From Rhodoblastus acidophilus (lineage in GTDB: Bacteria; Pseudomonadota; Alphaproteobacteria; Rhizobiales; Beijerinckiaceae): 36,139 nucleotides of DNA. The stretch lies in NCBI RefSeq assembly GCF_025961575.1, contig NZ_JAOQNX010000043.1, positions 1-36,139 of the forward strand. Direction: 5' to 3'. A model generated the notes under the pieces. The model was not told the DNA's origin and did not search any database. It saw nothing but the letters and a program-made list of their open reading frames with translations. This document shows, piece after piece, positions 27,056-35,885 of the stretch (its first letter is position 1; each line of letters begins with the position of its first letter). Made by a program: the position numbers and the translations under genes.

Positions 27056-27298
27056 TCAGTCGCGATCGTGGTGGTGATAATGATCGTGATCGTGGTGATG
27101 GCTCCCCCAGCCATGGCCGCCGGGGCGCCGGGGTCCGCCGCCCGAATGGGCGATCGCCTGCGACGACAGCGTCGTCGACAGCAGCAGGGTGATCGCCGGC
27201 GGCGTGACCGCCGAGAACCGGCCAAGAGCGGACAGGAACGCCCGTCGATCCGCGGCTTCGGCCGTTGTGGCCGGCTTGTCGTCTGCCTCATCAGTCAT
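27056..27298 (-). CDS. small His-rich exported or precursor peptide
   Basis: An 80-residue protein. Residues 1-17 are polar and acidic; then DRRAFLSALGRF and a moderately hydrophobic part (PPAITLLLSTTLSSQAIA) end in an AxA-type cleavage site after Ala50. RRAFL resembles a twin-arginine export motif, weakened by a Thr-Pro-Pro break. The last 30 residues are Gly- and His-rich (HSGGGPRRPGG..., ten His plus several Asp). The start at 27298 has GGAGAG ~5 nt upstream. I recall short proteins with this VTPPAxTLLLSTT-type leader beside HPr-kinase-like cassettes but know no function. It is divergent from the PqqD/kinase fusion across an AT-rich region. It may be a metal-binding secreted peptide or a modified precursor; both are inference. 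Confidence 0.72.
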   Translation of the reverse strand: MTDEADDKPATTAEAADRRAFLSALGRFSAVTPPAITLLLSTTLSSQAIAHSGGGPRRPGGHGWGSHHHDHDHYHHHDRD

Positions 27299-27384
27299 GG
27301 TTCTCTCCACAAGACATTGCGTCCAACGTGTCCGCCGGGGCTTCAGCGCGGCGGTTCCCAATCGCCCAGGCGGTCGATCGGGTG

Positions 27385-27448
27385 AGGTTAAAATGCGTTC
27401 GATAATAAATATGTTTCAAATTAAATTTATTAAACAAAAAATATCAAA
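27385..27448. promoter_or_regulatory. AT-rich island A, divergent promoter region
   Basis: A stretch of about 60 nt, almost free of G and C in a GC-rich neighbourhood, between the divergent peptide and kinase genes. It contains AATAAATATGTTTCAA (27404-27419) and TTAAATTTATTAAA, the latter largely self-complementary. The word AATAAATAT recurs in island B. Such islands fit promoters under AT-binding regulators (the MucR/Ros or H-NS-like type); no regulator is identified here. Confidence 0.5.
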
Positions 27449-28627
27449 ATGGGCACTTTCCCGGATTTAAAAGCCTTTACCGATCCTTCAACATCGGTTC
27501 TCGCCGAACGGATGGACCGGATGACCGTGACGATGCCGCGCTGCGTTGAACCCGACCCGGAGGCCGCCGACCTGCGCCCCGCCGCCGCCTTTGCCCTGTT
27601 CGACGGCCAGCCCACGGTGTTCTGCGAGGCCGCGCAGGCGCTGTACCGGCTCAATCCGGTCGCCGCGCTCATCTGGCGCGGCCTCGACGAGGGCGGCGTC
27701 GCCGGGGCGCGCGCGGCGCTGACCGAGGCCGGCCTGGATGCGAGCCTGGCGGCGCGCCACGTCAACGAGGCGGTCGAAGGCTGGCTGCGTCTGGGCCTGC
27801 TGCGCCTGAATTCTTGCGCGCAGACCGGAGCCAACACATTTTTGGTGGACGGCGCCGCTTACAGCTTTTCGACGCCCCGCAAAAAAATCCGGGATGCGAT
27901 CGCGCAGGCGTTTCCCGCAGAGACCAAACAGCTTGAGAGCCCCGCCGCGCAGTTCCAACTCATCGAATTCGGCGATTCCCTGCACATGTTCAGAAAGGGC
28001 CGTTCCGTCGGCCGCTGCGACCCGGACGAGGTCGCGCCGGCCGCCAAGGCGTTGGTCATCGCCGACATTCTGGCCCGCGACCGGACCGACATCCTGCTCC
28101 ACGCCGCCTGCCTGTCGCGGAAAGGCCGCGCGCTACTGCTGAACGGCGAGCCCGGCGCGGGCAAAACAACCCTTTCGCTGCGCCTGACCGCGAAAAACTT
28201 CGGCTATTGCGGCGACGACATCGCGCTGATCGCGCCAAACGGTCATGTCTGCGGCCTGCCATTTCCCCCCACGGTCAAGTCGGGCGCCTGGAGCCTGTTC
28301 CCCGGTCTGAAAGGCGAGGTTCATCGCCGGCCCGACGGCCAGGAGGTGATCTATGCCGCGCTCGATGGCGGCGATCACGCCAGCCGTCCGGTCGGATGGA
28401 TCGTCTTCTTGCGCAGGCAAGCGGGCGCCCCGAAATTTCTTTCCGTCGACCGCGTCGAGGCGCTGCGCCGCATCATCGCGGGCGCCCATGCGCCGGGCCG
28501 GCGGCTGACCCTCACCGGTTTCGCCACGCTGCGGCGCATTCTTGCGGAGGCCGCGACCGTCGAACTCGTCTACGGCTGCGCCGCCGAGGCCGCCGACGCG
28601 CTTTGCGATTTCTGCGATGGACCATAG
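27449..28627 (+). CDS. PqqD-like / HPr-kinase-like fusion protein
   Basis: A 392-residue protein. Residues ~30-130 look PqqD-like (ALFDGQPTVFCEAAQALYRL, LNPVAALIWRGLDEGG, then a winged helical part ending WLRLGLLRL). From ~135 there is an HPr-kinase-related domain: a beta-rich lead, LLHAACLSRKGRALLLNG, P-loop GEPGAGKTT with Lys239, then YCGDDIALI as an acidic Walker-B-like motif. PqqD proteins present peptides to modifying enzymes; HPr-kinase relatives phosphorylate serine, including lasso-peptide residues in paeninodin-type clusters. The ATG at 27449 has no Shine-Dalgarno sequence; ATG 27512 or 27521 (with GGATGG upstream) may be the true start and would leave both domains intact. It overlaps the next gene by 11 nt. 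Confidence 0.78.
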   Translation: MGTFPDLKAFTDPSTSVLAERMDRMTVTMPRCVEPDPEAADLRPAAAFALFDGQPTVFCEAAQALYRLNPVAALIWRGLDEGGVAGARAALTEAGLDASLAARHVNEAVEGWLRLGLLRLNSCAQTGANTFLVDGAAYSFSTPRKKIRDAIAQAFPAETKQLESPAAQFQLIEFGDSLHMFRKGRSVGRCDPDEVAPAAKALVIADILARDRTDILLHAACLSRKGRALLLNGEPGAGKTTLSLRLTAKNFGYCGDDIALIAPNGHVCGLPFPPTVKSGAWSLFPGLKGEVHRRPDGQEVIYAALDGGDHASRPVGWIVFLRRQAGAPKFLSVDRVEALRRIIAGAHAPGRRLTLTGFATLRRILAEAATVELVYGCAAEAADALCDFCDGP

Positions 28628-29669
28628 CCGCGCCTTCGCCGACCTCTGTCTTTGCCTTCGCGGCGCGCTTCCGCCTGAGCCCGACTGGATGGCGATCGTC
28701 GCGCTCGCCAACCGCACCCTGACGACGCCGTTCCTGGTCGATGTCGTGCGCGGGCGCGGCGCAGAAATGCCCGAGGACGTCAGGAGTCTCGTAGAGACCC
28801 TGTTCGCGCGCAACCTGGCCCGCAACGAAAGGCTCACCGCGCAACTCGGCGAGACCTTGGCGGCGCTGAACGCGCATGGCGTTACCCCCGTCCTGCTGAA
28901 GGGCGCAGCCACGCTCGCCGCAAGCGATTGCGACAGCGCGGGCCGCCGGCTGTCCTGCGATCTCGACCTGCTGATCGCGCCGCAGGAGCGCGCGGCGACT
29001 TTCGACGCCCTGGCGCGCATCGGCTATCGCGTCTTCCGCCGCGCGAACGCCGGAAAATGGTTCGTCGATCTCGGACGGCCGGGCGATGTCGGCATGGTTG
29101 ATCTGCACGTCGCGCCGCCCGGCCCCGCCCACCATTACCAGCTTCTGGGCGAGGTGGCGGCGCGCTGCCGTCCCGTGACCGTCGGGCTGGGCCTCGCGCT
29201 TCTGCCGTCGCCCGTCGCCCAGGCGCTGATCATGGTCGTTCACGACCAGTTCCAGGACCACGGTTACTGGCTGGGCGACATCGATATGCGCCATCTGCTC
29301 GATCTTCGCGACCTCGCGGCGCACGAGGATTTTGACTGGAGCGAACTGTCGGCGCTCGCGGTGGGGGAGCTCGGCCGCAACGCGCTGGAGACGCAAGTGC
29401 TCGCGCTCCACGCCTTGCTGGGCGTCGACACGCCTGCGGACCTGCGCCGCCGGTTCGTTCCCCGCCTTCAGCATCGCCGCCGCATGCTGCAGCTGCGGTT
29501 TCCAGAGCTGCGTCCGATCTTCATGGCCGCCGGCGTTCTCGATTTGCTGCATTATCGCAGCGAGGTGAGGCCACAGACGGGGCCGCGCCAGACGCGCTTG
29601 CTTCCCAAGGTGGAAACTCTGGGCTTTTTTCTGGCCCGCGCGCGGCAACGCCGGAACGCCAAACTTTAA
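28617..29669 (+). CDS. nucleotidyltransferase family protein
   Basis: A 350-residue protein of the uncharacterised nucleotidyltransferase group often found with HPr-kinase-like genes. The core has VTPVLLKGAATLA (Lys95) and RLSCDLDLLI with Asp115 and Asp117, the paired acids of a polymerase-beta-type metal site. A central VDLHVAPP supplies a probable third acid. The rest is helical with charged segments. Members occur in lasso-peptide and capsule-like clusters; the transferred group and acceptor are unknown. It overlaps the kinase fusion gene by 11 nt, so the two are co-translated and probably work together. Confidence 0.8.
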   Translation: MDHSRAFADLCLCLRGALPPEPDWMAIVALANRTLTTPFLVDVVRGRGAEMPEDVRSLVETLFARNLARNERLTAQLGETLAALNAHGVTPVLLKGAATLAASDCDSAGRRLSCDLDLLIAPQERAATFDALARIGYRVFRRANAGKWFVDLGRPGDVGMVDLHVAPPGPAHHYQLLGEVAARCRPVTVGLGLALLPSPVAQALIMVVHDQFQDHGYWLGDIDMRHLLDLRDLAAHEDFDWSELSALAVGELGRNALETQVLALHALLGVDTPADLRRRFVPRLQHRRRMLQLRFPELRPIFMAAGVLDLLHYRSEVRPQTGPRQTRLLPKVETLGFFLARARQRRNAKL

Positions 29670-29674
29670 TGTCG

Positions 29675-29715
29675 AAAAATAAATATATTCAACTGGAAAT
29701 AAATTATTTAATATC
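29675..29715. promoter_or_regulatory. AT-rich island B before the acyltransferase gene
   Basis: AAAAATAAATATATTCAA followed by AAATAAATTATTTAATAT, in the 135-nt gap between the nucleotidyltransferase and acyltransferase genes. It shares AATAAATAT and a following TTCAA with island A. It may be a promoter giving the acyltransferase its own transcript, co-regulated with the peptide/kinase promoter. Confidence 0.45.
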
Positions 29716-29804
29716 GCCTCGGCTGCAGGGCTCTCGCGCGAGGCGGACCGGTGCGGCCGCGCGGCCGTTCCCATGCAACACGATGTTCTAGCGGGGATAC
29801 GAGA

Positions 29805-30440
29805 ATGGACCTGTCGCCGGGCGGAAAACTGTCTTCCGAAAATCCGGAGGAATGTCTGAAGCGCATCCGCGCTTTCATCCGCGTTCTCGCCATGCGCAAA
29901 AAGCACAGCTTCAATCGCAGGGTCTCGATCGGCGACCTGCTGACCGAACGCGCCGACAATGCCGCCGCCTGTGGTTTTGGAGAGGGCACGACCATGTACG
30001 ACAATGTTCTGGTCCTTGGCGACGTCCGGGTCGGGCGTCATTGCTGGATCGGACCCGGCTGCATCCTCGATGGCTCCGGACACGGACTGGAGATCGGCGA
30101 CTGGTGCTCGATTTCCGCGGGCGTCCAGATCTACACCCATAATGCGGTGAACAGGTCGACCTCGCTTGGCCGCCTGCCCGTCGATTATGCGCCGACAAAA
30201 ATCGGTGACGGCGTCTATATCGGCCCAAACGCCATCGTGCAGATGGGCGTGACCATCGGCGACAAGGCGATCATCGGCGCCCATGCCCTGGTCAATCGCA
30301 ACGTTCCCGCCGGCGCCAAGGCTTACGGCGCGCCGGCGAGACTTGTCGCAATGGACCTCAGCGCTCCTTCATCGCCCGCTCCGCCTGATCCCACAGCGGC
30401 TTCGTCAGATAGGACAGGGCGGTCCGCTCCGGGGTCTTGA
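29805..30440 (+). CDS. hexapeptide-repeat acyltransferase
   Basis: A 211-residue left-handed beta-helix protein. Residues ~65-165 are hexapeptide repeats (VLGDVRVGRHCWIGPGC, KIGDGVYIGPNAIV, VTIGDKAIIGAHALV), with the likely catalytic His112 in YTHNAV and the usual end YGAPARLV. Relatives O- or N-acylate sugars and other small molecules with acetyl-CoA. The last ~28 residues are low-complexity Pro/Ser/Ala and overlap the convergent hlyD gene by 83 nt. The start at 29805 follows GCGGGGATACGAGA; an upstream start at 29751 gives an unlikely N-terminus. Context points to surface glycan or peptide modification, not proven. Confidence 0.83.
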   Translation: MDLSPGGKLSSENPEECLKRIRAFIRVLAMRKKHSFNRRVSIGDLLTERADNAAACGFGEGTTMYDNVLVLGDVRVGRHCWIGPGCILDGSGHGLEIGDWCSISAGVQIYTHNAVNRSTSLGRLPVDYAPTKIGDGVYIGPNAIVQMGVTIGDKAIIGAHALVNRNVPAGAKAYGAPARLVAMDLSAPSSPAPPDPTAASSDRTGRSAPGS

Positions 30441-31656
30441 CGAAGACCTCGACCGGCATGCCCGGCGTCAGCTTCGCCGAACCCAGCCGTTTGACCTCGT
30501 CCGCCTTCAGTTCGACCCGCGCCTTATAAAAACCCGCGCCGGTCTTCTGGTCCTGCGTGGCGTCCGCCGCGACCATGGCGACGGGGCCCTCGATTTCCGG
30601 CGTGGTCTTCTGGTTGAAGGCGGAGAAGCGCAGCGCCGCCGTCTGCCCGACATGAACCTGGTCAATGTCGTTCGGCGCGAACTTGACCTCGACAGCCAAA
30701 GCATCGGCTTCCGGCACGATCAGCATGATCTGCTCTCCCGGCGAGATCACCCCGCCTACCGTATGAACGGACAGTTCATGCACGCGGCCGGATTGCGGCG
30801 CGCGAATGTCGACGCGGTTGAGCTGGTCGACCGCCGCGACCTTCCTCTCCGCGAGTTCCGACAGTTTGGAGCGCGTGTCGATCAAATCCTTGCCGACCTC
30901 GCTGCGCAAATCCTGATCGATCTGGATGATCTGCAATTCGATCTCGGACGCCTTGCCCCGGGTCTGCGCGATCATGCCGGCGAGCTGGCTGCTTTCGCCT
31001 TCGAGCCGCGCGGCCTCGCGCTCCATCGCATTGATCTTGTTGAGCGGAATCAGCTTCTTGTCCCAGAGCGTGCGCAGGCCCTCCAGCTCCTTGTGAACCA
31101 GCTCGACTTCCTTGCGCTTGGCCTCCGCCTGCCCCTGATACCCCTGGATCTCGTCCTGCAATTGCGCGCTGCGCTCCTTGAGCTGCGCCTTCTGGCCATT
31201 GCGCGCCTGGCGGCGCAGGTCGAAAAGCCGTTTTTCCGCGCTGATCGCCTTGCCCGCATCGGAATTTTCGCGCACGCGATCCAGCAGGGTTTTGGGGAAT
31301 GCGATCGCGTCCGCATTGTCGCGTTCGCTCTCCAGCCGCGCCTCGCGCGCCAGGAGCTCGTCCACGCCCTTGGTCACGACGGCGGCGTTGGCGGCGGTCT
31401 GGGTCTGGTCGAGCCGGACCAGGATGTCGCCGGCCTTGACCTCGTCGCCGTCGCGCACGCGCAATTCGCTGACGATGCCGCCGGTGGCGTGCTGCACCTT
31501 CTTCACGCTGGAATCGACGACGACGACGCCCTGGCCGATCACCGCGCCGGAGAGACGGCTGGTGGCCGCCCAGCCGCCGATGCCGAAGGTCACGCACAGG
31601 CTGAGCGCCCCGCCCACGACCATGTAGCGCTGGATTGAATTGATCGCCGTGGTCAT
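30358..31656 (-). CDS. HlyD-family type I secretion adaptor
   Basis: A 432-residue membrane-fusion protein. One N-terminal membrane segment (about 14-34) is followed by a biotinyl-lipoyl half-motif (VQHATGGIVSELRVRDGDEV), long coiled-coil hairpins (about 90-280), the returning lipoyl half (VDIRAPQSGRVHELSVHTVGGVI, split) and a beta-barrel part (VEVKFAPNDIDQVHVGQ) near the C-terminus. This is the PrtE/HlyD class that links the ABC exporter to a TolC-type outer-membrane channel. The ATG at 31656 overlaps the exporter stop (ATGA) with GGAG 7 nt upstream. No tolC gene is in the window. Confidence 0.94.
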   Translation of the reverse strand: MTTAINSIQRYMVVGGALSLCVTFGIGGWAATSRLSGAVIGQGVVVVDSSVKKVQHATGGIVSELRVRDGDEVKAGDILVRLDQTQTAANAAVVTKGVDELLAREARLESERDNADAIAFPKTLLDRVRENSDAGKAISAEKRLFDLRRQARNGQKAQLKERSAQLQDEIQGYQGQAEAKRKEVELVHKELEGLRTLWDKKLIPLNKINAMEREAARLEGESSQLAGMIAQTRGKASEIELQIIQIDQDLRSEVGKDLIDTRSKLSELAERKVAAVDQLNRVDIRAPQSGRVHELSVHTVGGVISPGEQIMLIVPEADALAVEVKFAPNDIDQVHVGQTAALRFSAFNQKTTPEIEGPVAMVAADATQDQKTGAGFYKARVELKADEVKRLGSAKLTPGMPVEVFVKTPERTALSYLTKPLWDQAERAMKER

Positions 31657-33566
31657 CGCGCGCTCCACTTTCCTGAATTGTCCGCGACCACGTTCAGATT
31701 GACGGGCTTGCGCAGCACCCTGTTGAGCACCTCCTCCTTGGGGCCGAACGCCTGGATGCGCCCGGAACCGACCACCAGCACATGATCGACGCTTTCCAGC
31801 GCCTTGGGCCGATGGGCGACGATGACGACGATGCCGCCGCGCTCGCGCACGCCAGAGATGGCGGCGTTCAAAGCCTCCTCGCCCTCGCCGTCGAGATTGG
31901 ACGAGGGCTCGTCGAGCACGACGAGGAAGGGATCGCCGTAAAGCGCGCGGGCCAGTCCGATCCTTTGGCGCTGCCCAGCCGAAAGCGCGACGCCGCCTTC
32001 GCCGATCCGGGTCGCATAGCCGTCCGGGAAGGACAGGATCAGGTCATGCACGCCGGCGGCCTTGGCCGCCTTGAGTACGTCGGTCGCTTTCACGCCGGCA
32101 TGGAAGCGCGAGATGTTGCGGGCGATGCTGCCCTCGAACAATTCGACGTCTTGGGGCAGGTAGCCGATGTGTTTGCCAAGCGCATCCGAGGCCCATTGAT
32201 CCAGCGCCGCATTGTCGAGCTTGATCCGACCGCCGAGGCGCGGCCAGACGCCGACCAGGGCGCGCGCCAGCGTCGATTTGCCGGAGCCGCTGGGGCCGAT
32301 GATCCCGCAGGCGCTTCCGGCGCGCAGGGTGAAGGACGCGCCCGACAGAAGCGGCCGCTCGGAACCGGGCGCCGCGACATGCAGCCCTTCGACGACGAGG
32401 GAGTCGCGCGGCGCCGGCAGCGCGAGCGGCTCTTCCTCCTGCGGCAGCAGTTTCAGCAGCAGGTCGAGCCGGCGTCCCGCCTGGCGCGCGCCCACAAACC
32501 CCTTCCAGTTGGCGATGGCCACGTCGACGGGCGCGAGCGCGCGCGCCGTCAGGATCGAACCGGCGATGATGATTCCCGCCGTCGACTGCTGGTTGATGAC
32601 CAGCGTGGCGCCCACGGCGAGCACCACGGATTGCAGCACGGAGCGGAACACCCGCGAGGCGCCGCCGAGACCGCTGGCGATGTCGCTCGCCTGTTCATGC
32701 GCGGCGAGATAGGCGTGATTGGCCTCGCGCCAGCGCAAGGCGGCCTGGCCGCGCATGCCCATGGCGTGCAGCACCTCAGCGTTGCGCCGGCTCTCCGCGG
32801 CGAGCGCGCTGCGGGTCGCGCCATGGCGCGCGAAAGCGGCGGCCGGCCCCTTGGTGGTGAATTCGGTGGCGACGGTCAGCGCGATCAGAGCGAGCGCGCC
32901 GAACAGCGCGGTGACGCCGATCCAGAAATGGAACAGGAAGCAGATGCCGAGATAGACCGGCATCCAGGGAAGATCGAGAAGCGCCGTCGGACCACCGCCC
33001 GCCAGAAAGCCGCGCAACAGGTCGAGATCGCGCAGCGGCTGCAGGCCGTCGCCGTCGCCGCGGGTCTTCAGGGGCAGGCGCACCAGCGCGTCGAACACGC
33101 GCAAGCCCACGCGTTCGTCGAAATGGCGGCCGATGCGCGTGCTGATCCGCGCGCGCACGAGATCGATGCCGCCTTGGAACAGATAAAGGGTCAAAGCCAA
33201 AATCAGCAGAGCCACCAGCGTCGGCACGCTGCGGCCGGGCAGGACGCGGTCGTAAACCTGCAACATGAAGAACGAGCCGGTGAGCATCAGCAAATTGCTC
33301 AAGCCGCTGAACAGCGCGAGGCCCCAGAAAACGCTCTTGCAGGAGGCGAGAAAGGCGCGGATCTCCGAACGTGGGTCTCCGTCGAACGATGGCTGCGCCC
33401 GATGCGAAAACAGGATTTTCCGCGCGGTATCGAGCAGATCCTTCGCTTGCGCACGCAGCTTCTCTGTCCGAGCGACCAGCGCGGCCAGGCTTTTGAGAGG
33501 CCCGGTCTGGTCATTGTCGAAATGGTCCGGGGGCGAGAAATTCCCGCGTCGTTCGATATGAGTCAT
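31653..33566 (-). CDS. type I secretion ABC exporter (PrtD-like)
   Basis: A 637-residue permease-ATPase. After a polar ~75-residue N-terminal extension comes a six-helix ABC export domain (about 78-365; SGLSNLLMLTGSFFMLQVYDR-type start, split here) and an ATPase domain with Walker A GPSGSGKST (Lys430), signature LSAGQRQR, Walker B LVVLDEPSSNLD and switch His in VAHRP. It lacks a C39 peptidase, which fits a substrate with an uncleaved C-terminal signal. The ATG has AGGGAG just upstream. The gene follows the beta-helix substrate gene across a strong hairpin. Confidence 0.94.
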   Translation of the reverse strand: MTHIERRGNFSPPDHFDNDQTGPLKSLAALVARTEKLRAQAKDLLDTARKILFSHRAQPSFDGDPRSEIRAFLASCKSVFWGLALFSGLSNLLMLTGSFFMLQVYDRVLPGRSVPTLVALLILALTLYLFQGGIDLVRARISTRIGRHFDERVGLRVFDALVRLPLKTRGDGDGLQPLRDLDLLRGFLAGGGPTALLDLPWMPVYLGICFLFHFWIGVTALFGALALIALTVATEFTTKGPAAAFARHGATRSALAAESRRNAEVLHAMGMRGQAALRWREANHAYLAAHEQASDIASGLGGASRVFRSVLQSVVLAVGATLVINQQSTAGIIIAGSILTARALAPVDVAIANWKGFVGARQAGRRLDLLLKLLPQEEEPLALPAPRDSLVVEGLHVAAPGSERPLLSGASFTLRAGSACGIIGPSGSGKSTLARALVGVWPRLGGRIKLDNAALDQWASDALGKHIGYLPQDVELFEGSIARNISRFHAGVKATDVLKAAKAAGVHDLILSFPDGYATRIGEGGVALSAGQRQRIGLARALYGDPFLVVLDEPSSNLDGEGEEALNAAISGVRERGGIVVIVAHRPKALESVDHVLVVGSGRIQAFGPKEEVLNRVLRKPVNLNVVADNSGKWSAR

Positions 33567-33590
33567 GGGGCTCCCTCTGTCGGCGCCGGG

Positions 33591-33616
33591 ACGCCAGCGG
33601 CCGGAGCCGCTGGCGT
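33591..33616 (-). terminator. strong intercistronic hairpin between substrate and exporter
   Basis: ACGCCAGCGGC (33591-33601) and GCCGCTGGCGT (33606-33616) form a perfect 11-bp GC-rich stem with a 4-nt loop, 17 nt after the stop of the substrate gene and 25 nt before the exporter start. On the minus strand no T-run follows, so it is more likely an attenuator or 3'-end-protecting element that lets the substrate mRNA exceed the exporter mRNA than a full stop. Confidence 0.7.
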
Positions 33617-33632
33617 GACTTTGTTAAGAGCG

Positions 33633-35327
33633 TCAGGCGAAGTGGAAGTCCTGCGCGTTGAGCGCGCCAACATGGGTGTGCTTGAGCGTCAGCGAGTCGG
33701 CGCCCGAGGAGATGACGACGTCATGCCCAACCTGCTGCGCATGGGAGAGCACGGTGTTGAAATCGGCGAATGCGCTCGTGCTGAGCTGGATCGTGTCATG
33801 ATTGGCGCCGCTCGCGTGGAAATCCTTGATCACGTCATGTCCAAAATTCTGAGCGAACACGAAAGTGTCGGGATGGCCATTGCCGACGAACACATCATTG
33901 CCGGCGGTTCCGGTCAGCGTATTGGCGCCGCTCGATCCGACGATCGCCGCGCCGGAGCTGGCGGAGGCGACGTGACCGGCGCTGTCCACTTCCTTCGCGG
34001 TGAACGTGTGCACCGCGTCGGACAGCGAGCTGGACTTGAAGGTCCAATGCCCTGAAGCGTCGGCGGTCGCGGTTCCGACCTGGGCGGCGCCGTCGTAGAG
34101 GCTGACATGGGCGCCGGCGTCCGCCACTCCCTTGATCAGAGCTTGATGTCCATGCGCATGCGCGCCGGTGACCTCGACATGGTGGCCGGAGGCGTCGGAC
34201 GTGGTCGTGTCGGTGGTCGAGGCGGCGGTGGTCGCGGCGGCGGGTTTCGTCGTGGTCGCGTCCGTCTTCGTCGGCGTTGCGGCCGTCGCGCCGGTTGTGT
34301 CCGCGGCGCTGGTCACGGTCGTCGACGCATGGGTGGTCGGGCTGGTGGTCGCGGTCGTCGCGGTGGTCCCGTGATGGTGCGAGCCGCCATGGGTGTGGCT
34401 GGTGGTCGTGGTCGTCGAACCGTCCGTCGTCGTCCCGCCGCCGGCGGTTGTGGTCGCGCCGCCGGTCGACCCCGTCGTGGTCCCGCCCGAACCCGTTGTC
34501 GTCGTCGAGCCCGTCGAACCCGTCGTGGTCGTCGAACCCGTTGTGGTCGTGCTGGTCGAGCCGACATTGGCCGAGGTGTTGAGCGTCTTGATCAGGCTCG
34601 CGCCGTCATTGACGTTGCCGGTATAGGTGGGGCTGTTGGCGTTGAAGTCGGTGACGCCCCATTGGCCCGAACCCATGTGATTGTTCGTGAACGACACGCC
34701 GCTGATCGAGCCGCCGCTGAACTGGGCGTCACTGTAGACGGTGTAGCCGCCGCCGGACAGCAGGTTGTTGTCGACCTTGATGTTGGAGATCGGCCCGAAA
34801 TAATTGTCGATCATGACGGCGGAGGTCTGGCCAAAGTCGTTGATGACGGTGTTATGGCTGATCGACACGTTGGATTCGCCGCCGTCGATCTGGATGCCGT
34901 CGTAATGCGGCGAGCCCGAGGCCTTGAGGTTGTGGATGTAATTGTCCTGGATGGTCGAGGCGCCGGTAATGTTCATCCCGTTTTCGACGCCGGAGATGTT
35001 GTTGCCGATGAACGTCCCCTGGCCGTTGATGCCGTGGGAGCCGTCATTGTTGGCGCCGGTTCCGCTGATCGTGCAGTTCTTGACGGTCGCGCCGGTCACG
35101 CCGCTGGCGATGTTGACGACGCCGGTGTCGGTGCTCCCGGTGATCTTGCAATTCTCGATCGTGACGTTCGGAGCGTTGATATAGACGGTCCCCTTGATGT
35201 CGAGGCCGGAAATCACGGTCCCGGCCTTGGTGACGGTCAGGCTGCCTGATGGGCTCAGCGTCACTCCGGCGGGAACGCCGGTGTTGGTGGCGTCGGGAAA
35301 ACCGGTGGAGGTGGTCGTTGTAGCCAA
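33633..35327 (-). CDS. secreted beta-helix protein with Ig-like and RTX-type C-terminus
   Basis: A 564-residue putative substrate of the adjacent type I system. Residues ~20-235 are parallel beta-helix repeats (GLDIKGTVYINAPNVTIENC, then recurring N-x-I/V turns), resembling right-handed beta-helix carbohydrate-active or adhesive proteins. Then a Thr/Ser/Gly-rich linker (~257-382, with a short His-rich patch), an Ig-like domain (~383-460; VSLYDGAAQVGTATADASGH) and a C-terminal part with one RTX-like motif (NTLTGTAGNDVFVGN) and DFHFA at the end. No N-terminal signal peptide. The start is TTG 35327, with AGGAGA 7 nt upstream; a second TTG at 35351 lies upstream of that site. No catalytic residues are assigned. 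Confidence 0.85.
   Translation of the reverse strand: MATTTTSTGFPDATNTGVPAGVTLSPSGSLTVTKAGTVISGLDIKGTVYINAPNVTIENCKITGSTDTGVVNIASGVTGATVKNCTISGTGANNDGSHGINGQGTFIGNNISGVENGMNITGASTIQDNYIHNLKASGSPHYDGIQIDGGESNVSISHNTVINDFGQTSAVMIDNYFGPISNIKVDNNLLSGGGYTVYSDAQFSGGSISGVSFTNNHMGSGQWGVTDFNANSPTYTGNVNDGASLIKTLNTSANVGSTSTTTTGSTTTTGSTGSTTTTGSGGTTTGSTGGATTTAGGGTTTDGSTTTTTSHTHGGSHHHGTTATTATTSPTTHASTTVTSAADTTGATAATPTKTDATTTKPAAATTAASTTDTTTSDASGHHVEVTGAHAHGHQALIKGVADAGAHVSLYDGAAQVGTATADASGHWTFKSSSLSDAVHTFTAKEVDSAGHVASASSGAAIVGSSGANTLTGTAGNDVFVGNGHPDTFVFAQNFGHDVIKDFHASGANHDTIQLSTSAFADFNTVLSHAQQVGHDVVISSGADSLTLKHTHVGALNAQDFHFA
34200..34560. repeat. degenerate low-complexity repeat encoding Thr-rich linker
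   Basis: Within the beta-helix gene the DNA is built from variants of CCCGTCGTGGTCGTCGAA and related GTGGTCGTC units, encoding TTTTGST-like runs on the minus strand. The pattern is imperfect, so length may vary between strains by slippage. It explains the long open frames on the opposite strand here. Confidence 0.7.
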
Positions 35328-35885
35328 GCGTGCTCTCCTGAGTTTTGGCAAGGTATAGTGCTAATTGACAGGCTATTTGGCGGAGAATGCCAAGCAACCA
35401 AAAGGCCAAGTTAACGGTCGCCAAAAAAGTCTGTAGAAGAGGCGACATTGTGACGTGACCGCGGCCGCGCCAAGGTTATTTGCGTTCGGCGTCCGCCCAA
35501 ATTTAAATCACAGGCGGGCGCTTCGGTGAGGGCCTGCGGAAGAAAGCCCATGATAAAAAGGCGATTTCTTCCGAAAATGCAGGGAGTCTCGGCGGTTTTT
35601 TCCTCATCCGCCATGCCTGTGTTTAATTCTCCAGCCCAAGCGATGCAATCCGGCCAGCCGATATTTTTTTCAGGAGCAGGACGGGGAGCGGCGAAATTAA
35701 ATAATGCCGTCTTGCTTTCTGCCTTAGCCAACTGAACGCATCACGCGGGATGTGAACAGGAGAAATGCGATAAATATCTTTTTATAACAGAAATTTGATA
35801 TGAAGTCGGTTGGTCGGCGCACGCGGCGGGGCGCGCTACGACAGCGCGCCGTCGGCTGCGTCAATTTTATCCACAAGGAGTTTAA
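35328..35885. other. gene-poor region with AT-rich island C
   Basis: About 560 nt with no convincing gene; short open frames at 35411-35731 (minus) and 35526-35735 (plus) lack good starts and family resemblance. It should hold the promoter of the secreted-protein gene (TATACC lies ~30 nt before its start on the minus strand, without a clear -35). An AT-rich island at about 35767-35802 contains ATAAATAT (35770-35777), like islands A and B. GGCGCGCT-ACGAC-AGCGCGCC (35830-35850) is a perfect 8-bp hairpin. Confidence 0.45.

Follow-up and report, generated by a model that had tools for sequence, protein, structure and literature searches.

In a stretch of 36,139 nucleotides from Rhodoblastus acidophilus (contig NZ_JAOQNX010000043.1, referred to here as the window) we find a gene for a short peptide with an export-type leader next to genes for a PqqD-like domain fused to an HPr-kinase-like domain and for a nucleotidyltransferase (Table 1), and, as judged from sequence, this set of a putatively exported peptide, a kinase with a RiPP recognition element (RRE) and a nucleotidyltransferase is recurring in root-nodule and other bacteria. 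Comparison of relatives supports the domains, the conserved catalytic residues, the peptide leader, a conserved serine beyond it and the co-occurrence of the genes. Since an RRE is joined to a Ser kinase, since the Ser follows an export-type signal and a nucleotidyltransferase adjoins, and since the lasso-type protease family PF13471 has no match in the whole genome, phosphorylation of that Ser and decoration of the phosphate ahead of export would be the best explanation. On balance, we consider it probable, by no means certain, that the genes form a cassette in which an RRE guides the modification of a peptide and lasso chemistry has no part, and in which docking of the leader would be followed by Ser phosphorylation, decoration and export.

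Table 1. Features of the cassette and of its neighbour in the window
Feature	Position	Strand	Basis
Precursor-like peptide, 80 aa	27056..27298	-	ORF; no Pfam family match
Peptide landmarks: RR18-19, GRF26-28, TPPAITLLLST32-42, AIA48-50, Ser52-Gly-Gly, Gly/His-rich tail			
Codon of Ser52, proposed acceptor, 2 residues past A-x-A	27143..27145	-	Ser conservation; putative role
PqqD/RRE - HprK-like kinase fusion, 392 aa	27449..28627	+	Pfam, profiles, AlphaFold2 model
RRE (PqqD-like) domain, residues ~42-122	27572..27814	+	PF05402, model, profile match
Kinase motifs: H218, Walker A G233-T241 with K239, D256-D257	28100..28219	+	32-row alignment
PF14907 nucleotidyltransferase, 350 aa	28617..29669	+	PF14907 E 4e-28; K95, D115, D117
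Hexapeptide acyltransferase, neighbour outside the core	29805..30440	+	PF00132

The four open reading frames (ORFs) on which an earlier, sequence-only reading of the window was built lie where it placed them, including the 80-residue peptide and the overlapping nucleotidyltransferase, and the two domains that it had assigned to the fusion were borne out. PF05402 matches the N-terminal part with 26.5 bits (cut-off 23.4) and is found at E ≤ 0.01 in 20 of 32 aligned relatives; a profile of these 32 rows matches the lasso RREs TbiB1 (5v1u, E 3e-6), TfuB1 (6jx3) and 9x90, those of TbiB1 and TfuB1 over profile positions 9-91; and the AlphaFold2 model (mean pLDDT 86) has strands followed by helices at residues 42-114 and then the kinase domain, so that structure prediction shows the PqqD-like domain in the N-terminal part. 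Residues 1-35, with pLDDT below 50, are not conserved among relatives, and the true start may therefore be nearer 27512. For the HPr-kinase-like P-loop domain, the same profile matches HPr kinases (3tqf, E 3.3e-7), and Foldseek returned PEPCK as the best match of the modelled kinase domain (ranks 1-35) and also HprK/P. H218, G236, G238, K239, D256, K277 and R294 are invariant in the 32 kinases, with D257 in at least 90% of them. Profiles and model together thus support the presence of both a PqqD/RRE domain and a kinase fold. At another locus (L197, 3985-5187) the kinase carries its PqqD domain at the C-terminus and not at the N-terminus (52.6 bits, residues 330-395).

The HprK/P-like fold would also be expected of an HPr-type regulatory kinase that acts on a cellular protein and whose RRE merely senses the peptide. 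We regard this as very unlikely, because PF07475 reaches just 16.4 bits in the window fusion, below its cut-off of 33.3, and because the constant partner of the kinase is a nucleotidyltransferase, which scores at least 100 bits in 36 of the 42 loci whose kinase itself scores at least 100 bits (referred to below as kinase loci). The nucleotidyltransferase ORF of the window overlaps that of the fusion by 11 bp and encodes the single PF14907 match of the whole genome; its residues K95, D115 and D117 are invariant in 27 nucleotidyltransferases. The nearest folds to its structural model (pLDDT 92) are ANT(2'')-Ia, FKRP and LnuA, all above E 0.001, and no structural match at E ≤ 0.001 was found.

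The peptide gene is divergent from the fusion gene, with GGAGAG immediately 5' of its ATG start. A search for its family, from which the best 80 of 97 relatives were retained, yielded 78 loci, and peptides with the same leader occur in Rhodoblastus, Sinorhizobium/Ensifer, Bradyrhizobium, Afipia, Tardiphaga, Microvirga, Inquilinus, Pararhizobium and metagenome-assembled genomes, while one such locus carries the label Mycobacterium. In an alignment of 118 peptides (hidden Markov model matches minus two without the motif gave 119 distinct sequences, and one more was removed) the leader follows the consensus RRxFLxxCGRFxxVTPPAxTLLLSTxxxSxAIAxSG. Its R, R, F and L are conserved in 115, 116, 115 and 114 peptides; 112 have the G and 113 the F of GRF; the residues of TPP recur in 114, 116 and 115; the first alanine of A-x-A is present in 110 and the second in 107; and 112 peptides carry a Ser two residues past A-x-A. 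The GRF..TPP and A.T.LLST columns are inflated by the patterns used in the search, and RR, A-x-A and the Ser lie outside those patterns. Among 30 non-redundant leaders (<80% identity) 26 retain the Ser, and in six peptides (L099, L108, L121, L123, L124 and L150; L designates loci, G genomes and C contigs) it is the sole S/T/Y past A-x-A, three of these (L099, L108 and L124) adjoining a kinase. A smaller alignment (A6) holds 21 leaders picked by hand, the most deviant being excluded. The tails are variable, being Gly/His-rich, of the type GNNGxGNGGGDGSPNG, Lys-rich or made of Pro-Gly repeats. For cassette-adjacent Bradyrhizobium peptides the ratio of non-synonymous to synonymous differences (pN/pS) is 0.16 (8 sequences, 28 pairs), which speaks against a chance find; in the 8 Bradyrhizobium copies the leader has a lower ratio (0.11) than the core (0.28).

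Twin-arginine (Tat) export signals combine RR-x-F-L, a hydrophobic stretch and A-x-A. The peptide leader, which matches this pattern in RRxFL, hydrophobic stretch and A-x-A, resembles such a signal, and TatC is encoded in the window's own genome. GRF and TPP exceed what a Tat motif requires.

Three other peptide arrangements stand apart. Those of L184, L185 and L188 form a divergent subfamily that adjoins a kinase and has the C-terminus ...GHSGC in common; at L050 (7427-8338) three peptides in tandem combine a related leader with a Cys-rich tail (CEPCSTCTPCD...); and at L186 (3233-3867) three tandem peptides that stop almost at A-x-A lie 5' of a kinase-nucleotidyltransferase pair.

The association of peptide and cassette was assessed at several taxonomic depths. 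Among 60 genomes of relatives we found 12 fusion matches, the 5 best of which have a same-leader peptide within 1.5 kb, and the 7 weaker ones have none in their 1.5-kb flanks under a narrow motif. A survey of the order (297 genomes) gave 26 genomes with the fusion (E ≤ 1e-20), 13 with the leader and 12 with both (p 1.5e-13); when four genomes that belong to the profiles or are close to them are removed, 8 are shared between 22 and 9 in 293 genomes (p 2e-9). These profiles were also drawn mostly from peptide-linked cassettes, yet this test is cleaner than that of the class (385 genomes), where 9 genomes are shared between 11 fusions and 11 peptides and where the comparison is partly circular, profile A2 having been built partly from cassettes beside peptides of the same sample. 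Without the five genomes that contribute rows to A2, 4 are shared between 6 and 6 (p 2.6e-7, at a 100-bit cut picked afterwards). One strong match of the class survey (G066) is a true unfused HprK_rel_A. All peptide counts are lower bounds, because the short query was scored on at most 13-27 candidates per genome. In the phylum (279 genomes) the fusion profile matches 73 genomes, nearly all of those outside the class by the kinase part only, and the leader is found in 7, including a marginal match from outside the class. The full-length fusion is nearly confined to Alphaproteobacteria in that survey, with G836 as a possible exception.

We then inspected one by one the 21 full-length fusions among the 26 order matches (19 identified by a profile start ≤37, G492 by a separate count and G668 by eye). 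A peptide with an RR leader lies alongside 17 of them: nine were recognised by profile (G000, G584, G607, G642, G496, G457, G674, G640 and G678), six by motif (G673, G668, G613, G543, G452 and G492) and two by reading ORF lists (G657 and G442). Three genomes (G418, G681 and G694) encode the peptide away from the fusion, and none was found for the fusion of G044, which lies on a 4.2-kb contig. Three of the 21 (G442, G492 and G668) are without a PqqD domain match in Pfam. The order matches not counted are G480, G563, G573, G620 and G625; G620 has its PqqD domain at the C-terminus, and a looser rule places candidate RR peptides near the matches of G573, G620 and G625. Clustering of neighbours over 57 loci placed the kinase in 31 groups, against 22 for the nucleotidyltransferase, 13 for the peptide and at most 7 for any other family. 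The pairing of peptide and cassette that the sequence-only reading proposed therefore stands for the full-length fusions of the order, beside most of which the peptide is present, whereas its absence beside most homologous pairs would have counted against that reading; the pairing has to be drawn more widely, since the peptide also occurs in 50 of the 78 peptide loci without a kinase in the retrieved DNA, and beside unfused kinases.

A kinase lies within ~8 kb in 28 of the 78 peptide loci, some of which are cut by contig ends. Of the four peptide loci of Sinorhizobium meliloti 4H41, one (L112) contains the cassette, and the window's own genome encodes a second peptide of the family (G000:C4:182646-182795; L041 7617-7823), with a short tail ASSGECNKGGRPDGDRDFDR, by reading between biotin-synthesis genes. 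Both the many peptide genes far from any cassette and the copy adjoining biotin genes would fit an alternative in which kinase and nucleotidyltransferase act on some other substrate, the peptide being an ordinary linked Tat-exported small protein, and so would genome G172, which has a peptide and no strong fusion match. We think this unlikely: the association holds at the level of genome and of gene across many genera, the RRE is a peptide-binding domain, and the leader has GRF and TPP beyond the Tat motif, even if the search patterns had some part in selecting these columns.

Several observations, including that on G172, weigh against a cassette acting on the conserved Ser of these peptides. 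A Tat signal alone could account for part of the leader conservation. Genome G137 is among those that bear the cassette and yet have a peptide (L050) without x-Ser-Gly, and some divergent peptides have a Ser at the C-terminus and not past A-x-A. Pfam finds no N-terminal domain in the peptide-bearing relatives L188, L190, L184 and L053, and the PqqD domain of L189 scores under the Pfam cut-off. Finally, under the loosest rule RR peptides occur beside fused and unfused kinases alike (23 of 31 and 17 of 25, respectively; p 0.77).

This last result bears on whether RR peptides are specific to fused kinases, as a narrow motif had indicated (beside 16 of 30 RRE-fused kinases against 3 of 24 others). 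Another of the looser rules gave hits at 23 of the 31 loci with a fused kinase and at 12 of the 25 with an unfused one, against a background of 32 hits in 276,873 bases. Scoring of the candidates by eye, which was not blind, retained 22 of the 31 fused loci and between 8 and 11 of the 25 unfused ones. As the looser rules place RR peptides beside unfused kinases too, we reject such specificity. RR peptides adjoin two true HprK_rel_A kinases (L167 and L170, 377 and 331 bits), and in an unfused subfamily (L072, L073, L080, L082 and L083) the peptide leader reads TRRxALxRLGxxxxxAYxAPVLLxL. The fusion of the window is thus a variant of a wider theme, and on sequence grounds its TPP-leader form is one branch of a wider, putative family of kinases and RR peptides.

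Within the favoured reading, that of an RRE-guided cassette modifying its peptide, we infer leader binding, phosphorylation, a second step, Tat export, cleavage and a biological role. The PqqD-like domain would bind the leader that the neighbouring peptide shares with copies encoded elsewhere, and would present the residues past A-x-A to the fused HprK-like kinase, which may phosphorylate the conserved Ser (Ser52 in the window peptide). The PF14907 enzyme could then attach a sugar or a nucleotidyl moiety to the phosphoserine, as PsmN follows PsmK in pseudomycoidin. The leader would also act as twin-arginine export signal, and cleavage past A-x-A would free a peptide that is rich in Gly and bears the modified Ser at residue 2.

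Cleavage would, for some loci, leave almost nothing of the peptide: beside full-length kinases, those of L186 (...AAAAS, ...NALAY) and L190 (...AAADS) stop at or near A-x-A. Such peptides would suit a membrane-held primer, whose RR segment stays as an anchor and on whose Ser a phosphate-linked sugar primes a surface glycan. Sugar-type genes (formyltransferase and hexapeptide transferase), which we found by reading near some peptides, and the attachment of hexose to phosphoserine by PsmN (PMC9266682) point the same way. Most peptides, however, have a long hydrophilic Gly-rich tail that would be odd for a pure anchor, and clustering of the neighbours of 57 loci revealed no glycan gene recurring beside the cassette, so that we consider a primer distinctly unlikely.

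A lasso-peptide pathway with protease and cyclase encoded elsewhere is suggested by the RRE profile, which is nearest to lasso B1 proteins, by the occurrence of kinase and nucleotidyltransferase in lasso clusters (PMC9266682) and by three PF00733 (Asn_synthase) matches in the genome. These matches are all on other contigs (C30, C12 and C18), with no lasso-type Asn-synthetase-like cyclase found linked to the cassette; the B2-type protease, which the sequence-only reading had already noted as absent, has no PF13471 match in the whole genome; no cyclase or protease gene is a conserved neighbour among the 57 loci clustered; and the Gly-rich tails lack an obvious ring acceptor. A lasso pathway is accordingly highly improbable here. 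By reading, one locus (L018, genome G045) contains a lasso-like cluster with an Asn-synthetase-like protein, a kinase and a PqqD-like ORF.

Other genes of the window were rejected as parts of the cassette. The hexapeptide acyltransferase, which the sequence-only reading had counted as a member, reaches at least 200 bits at three of the 42 kinase loci, each from Rhodoblastus, and the 3' end of its gene overlaps a convergent hlyD gene by 83 bp (30358-30440). The latter belongs to a type I secretion pair (HlyD and PrtD types) that, with a repeat-rich protein with an RTX-like end, occupies 30358-35351; the secretion genes occur in 4 of 42 kinase loci, again all Rhodoblastus. Related type I secretion genes lie near the Bradyrhizobium peptide loci L042, L121, L144, L145 and L148 and hexapeptide genes near L142, L148, L150 and L160, in each case without a kinase nearby, and a looser link of the peptides with either kind of gene is possible.

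Taken further, these genes might set apart the exported phospho- or phosphoglyco-peptides of Alphaproteobacteria as a class of their own, in which the leader serves first as RRE dock and then as Tat signal, one cassette serves scattered precursors in trans, and residue 2 bears a phosphate-linked sugar or nucleotide, the product possibly being a surface or glycan-priming molecule of nodule bacteria and others. We put this forward tentatively, as it is rather doubtful in its full extent. The observations give the 'uncharacterised nucleotidyltransferase' family PF14907 and non-lasso HprK-related kinases a candidate substrate and residue, and the candidate system sits in genetically tractable bacteria (Sinorhizobium and Bradyrhizobium); in a Sinorhizobium meliloti record the genes are annotated as 'serine kinase', 'nucleotidyltransferase family protein' and 'hypothetical protein'.

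With a short precursor linked to enzymes and a leader-binding RRE domain, the cassette has two of the general features of ribosomally synthesized and post-translationally modified peptide (RiPP) systems. Our search of the literature for family names and their combinations, which mostly did not extend to subscription papers, found no description of it, and the word kinase is absent from the main text of two RRE papers (PMC7470986, PMC12710340) in the form accessible to us. In the work on pseudomycoidin (PMC9266682), an H-K-D-D set is described as conserved and required in lasso-peptide kinases that phosphorylate Ser, and knock-outs indicate that PsmK phosphorylates Ser and that PsmN, an annotated nucleotidyltransferase, adds hexose to the phosphoserine. 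The tailoring pair PsmK/PsmN and the kinases PadeK, ThcoK and SyanK share with the window an HprK-like H-K-D-D kinase, predicted in the window to act on a peptide Ser, together with an annotated nucleotidyltransferase as putative second enzyme there and an RRE for the leader. The window cassette differs in having neither lasso protease nor lasso neighbours, in its Tat-like leader, in the fusion of RRE and kinase, and in its family's Ser, which is mostly just past A-x-A and not C-terminal, with a Gly-rich tail. In DUF2063 RREs with DUF2282 precursors (PMC12710340) an export signal likewise takes the place of a classical leader, but it is of Sec type, and the accessible part of that paper does not mention a kinase or nucleotidyltransferase.

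The NCBIfam HPr-rel-A system (TIGR04352 HprK_rel_A and TIGR04353 PqqD_rel_X) has a homologous kinase, all 32 rows matching TIGR04352 at E ≤ 0.001, as well as a PqqD-family partner, a nucleotidyltransferase nearby and, at L167 and L170, RR peptides. In the window, by contrast, PqqD is fused to the kinase, which with 50.6 bits stays below the membership cut-off of 200, and TIGR04353 does not match the fusion at E ≤ 1 (one of 32 rows at E ≤ 0.001). Homology to SynChlorMet is weak (kinase-like ScmC in 6 and PqqD-related ScmD in 4 of 32 rows), ScmC scoring 21.1 bits in the window against 125, and radical-SAM genes are missing from the conserved neighbours. HPr kinase/phosphorylase has the fold and the P-loop and DD motifs in common with the window kinase, which falls below the family cut-offs and has an additional RRE and a peptide neighbour. 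If our interpretation is correct, a Tat signal would double as RRE leader, and kinase and nucleotidyltransferase would be a pair of general use for decorating peptides and not an accessory of lasso pathways.

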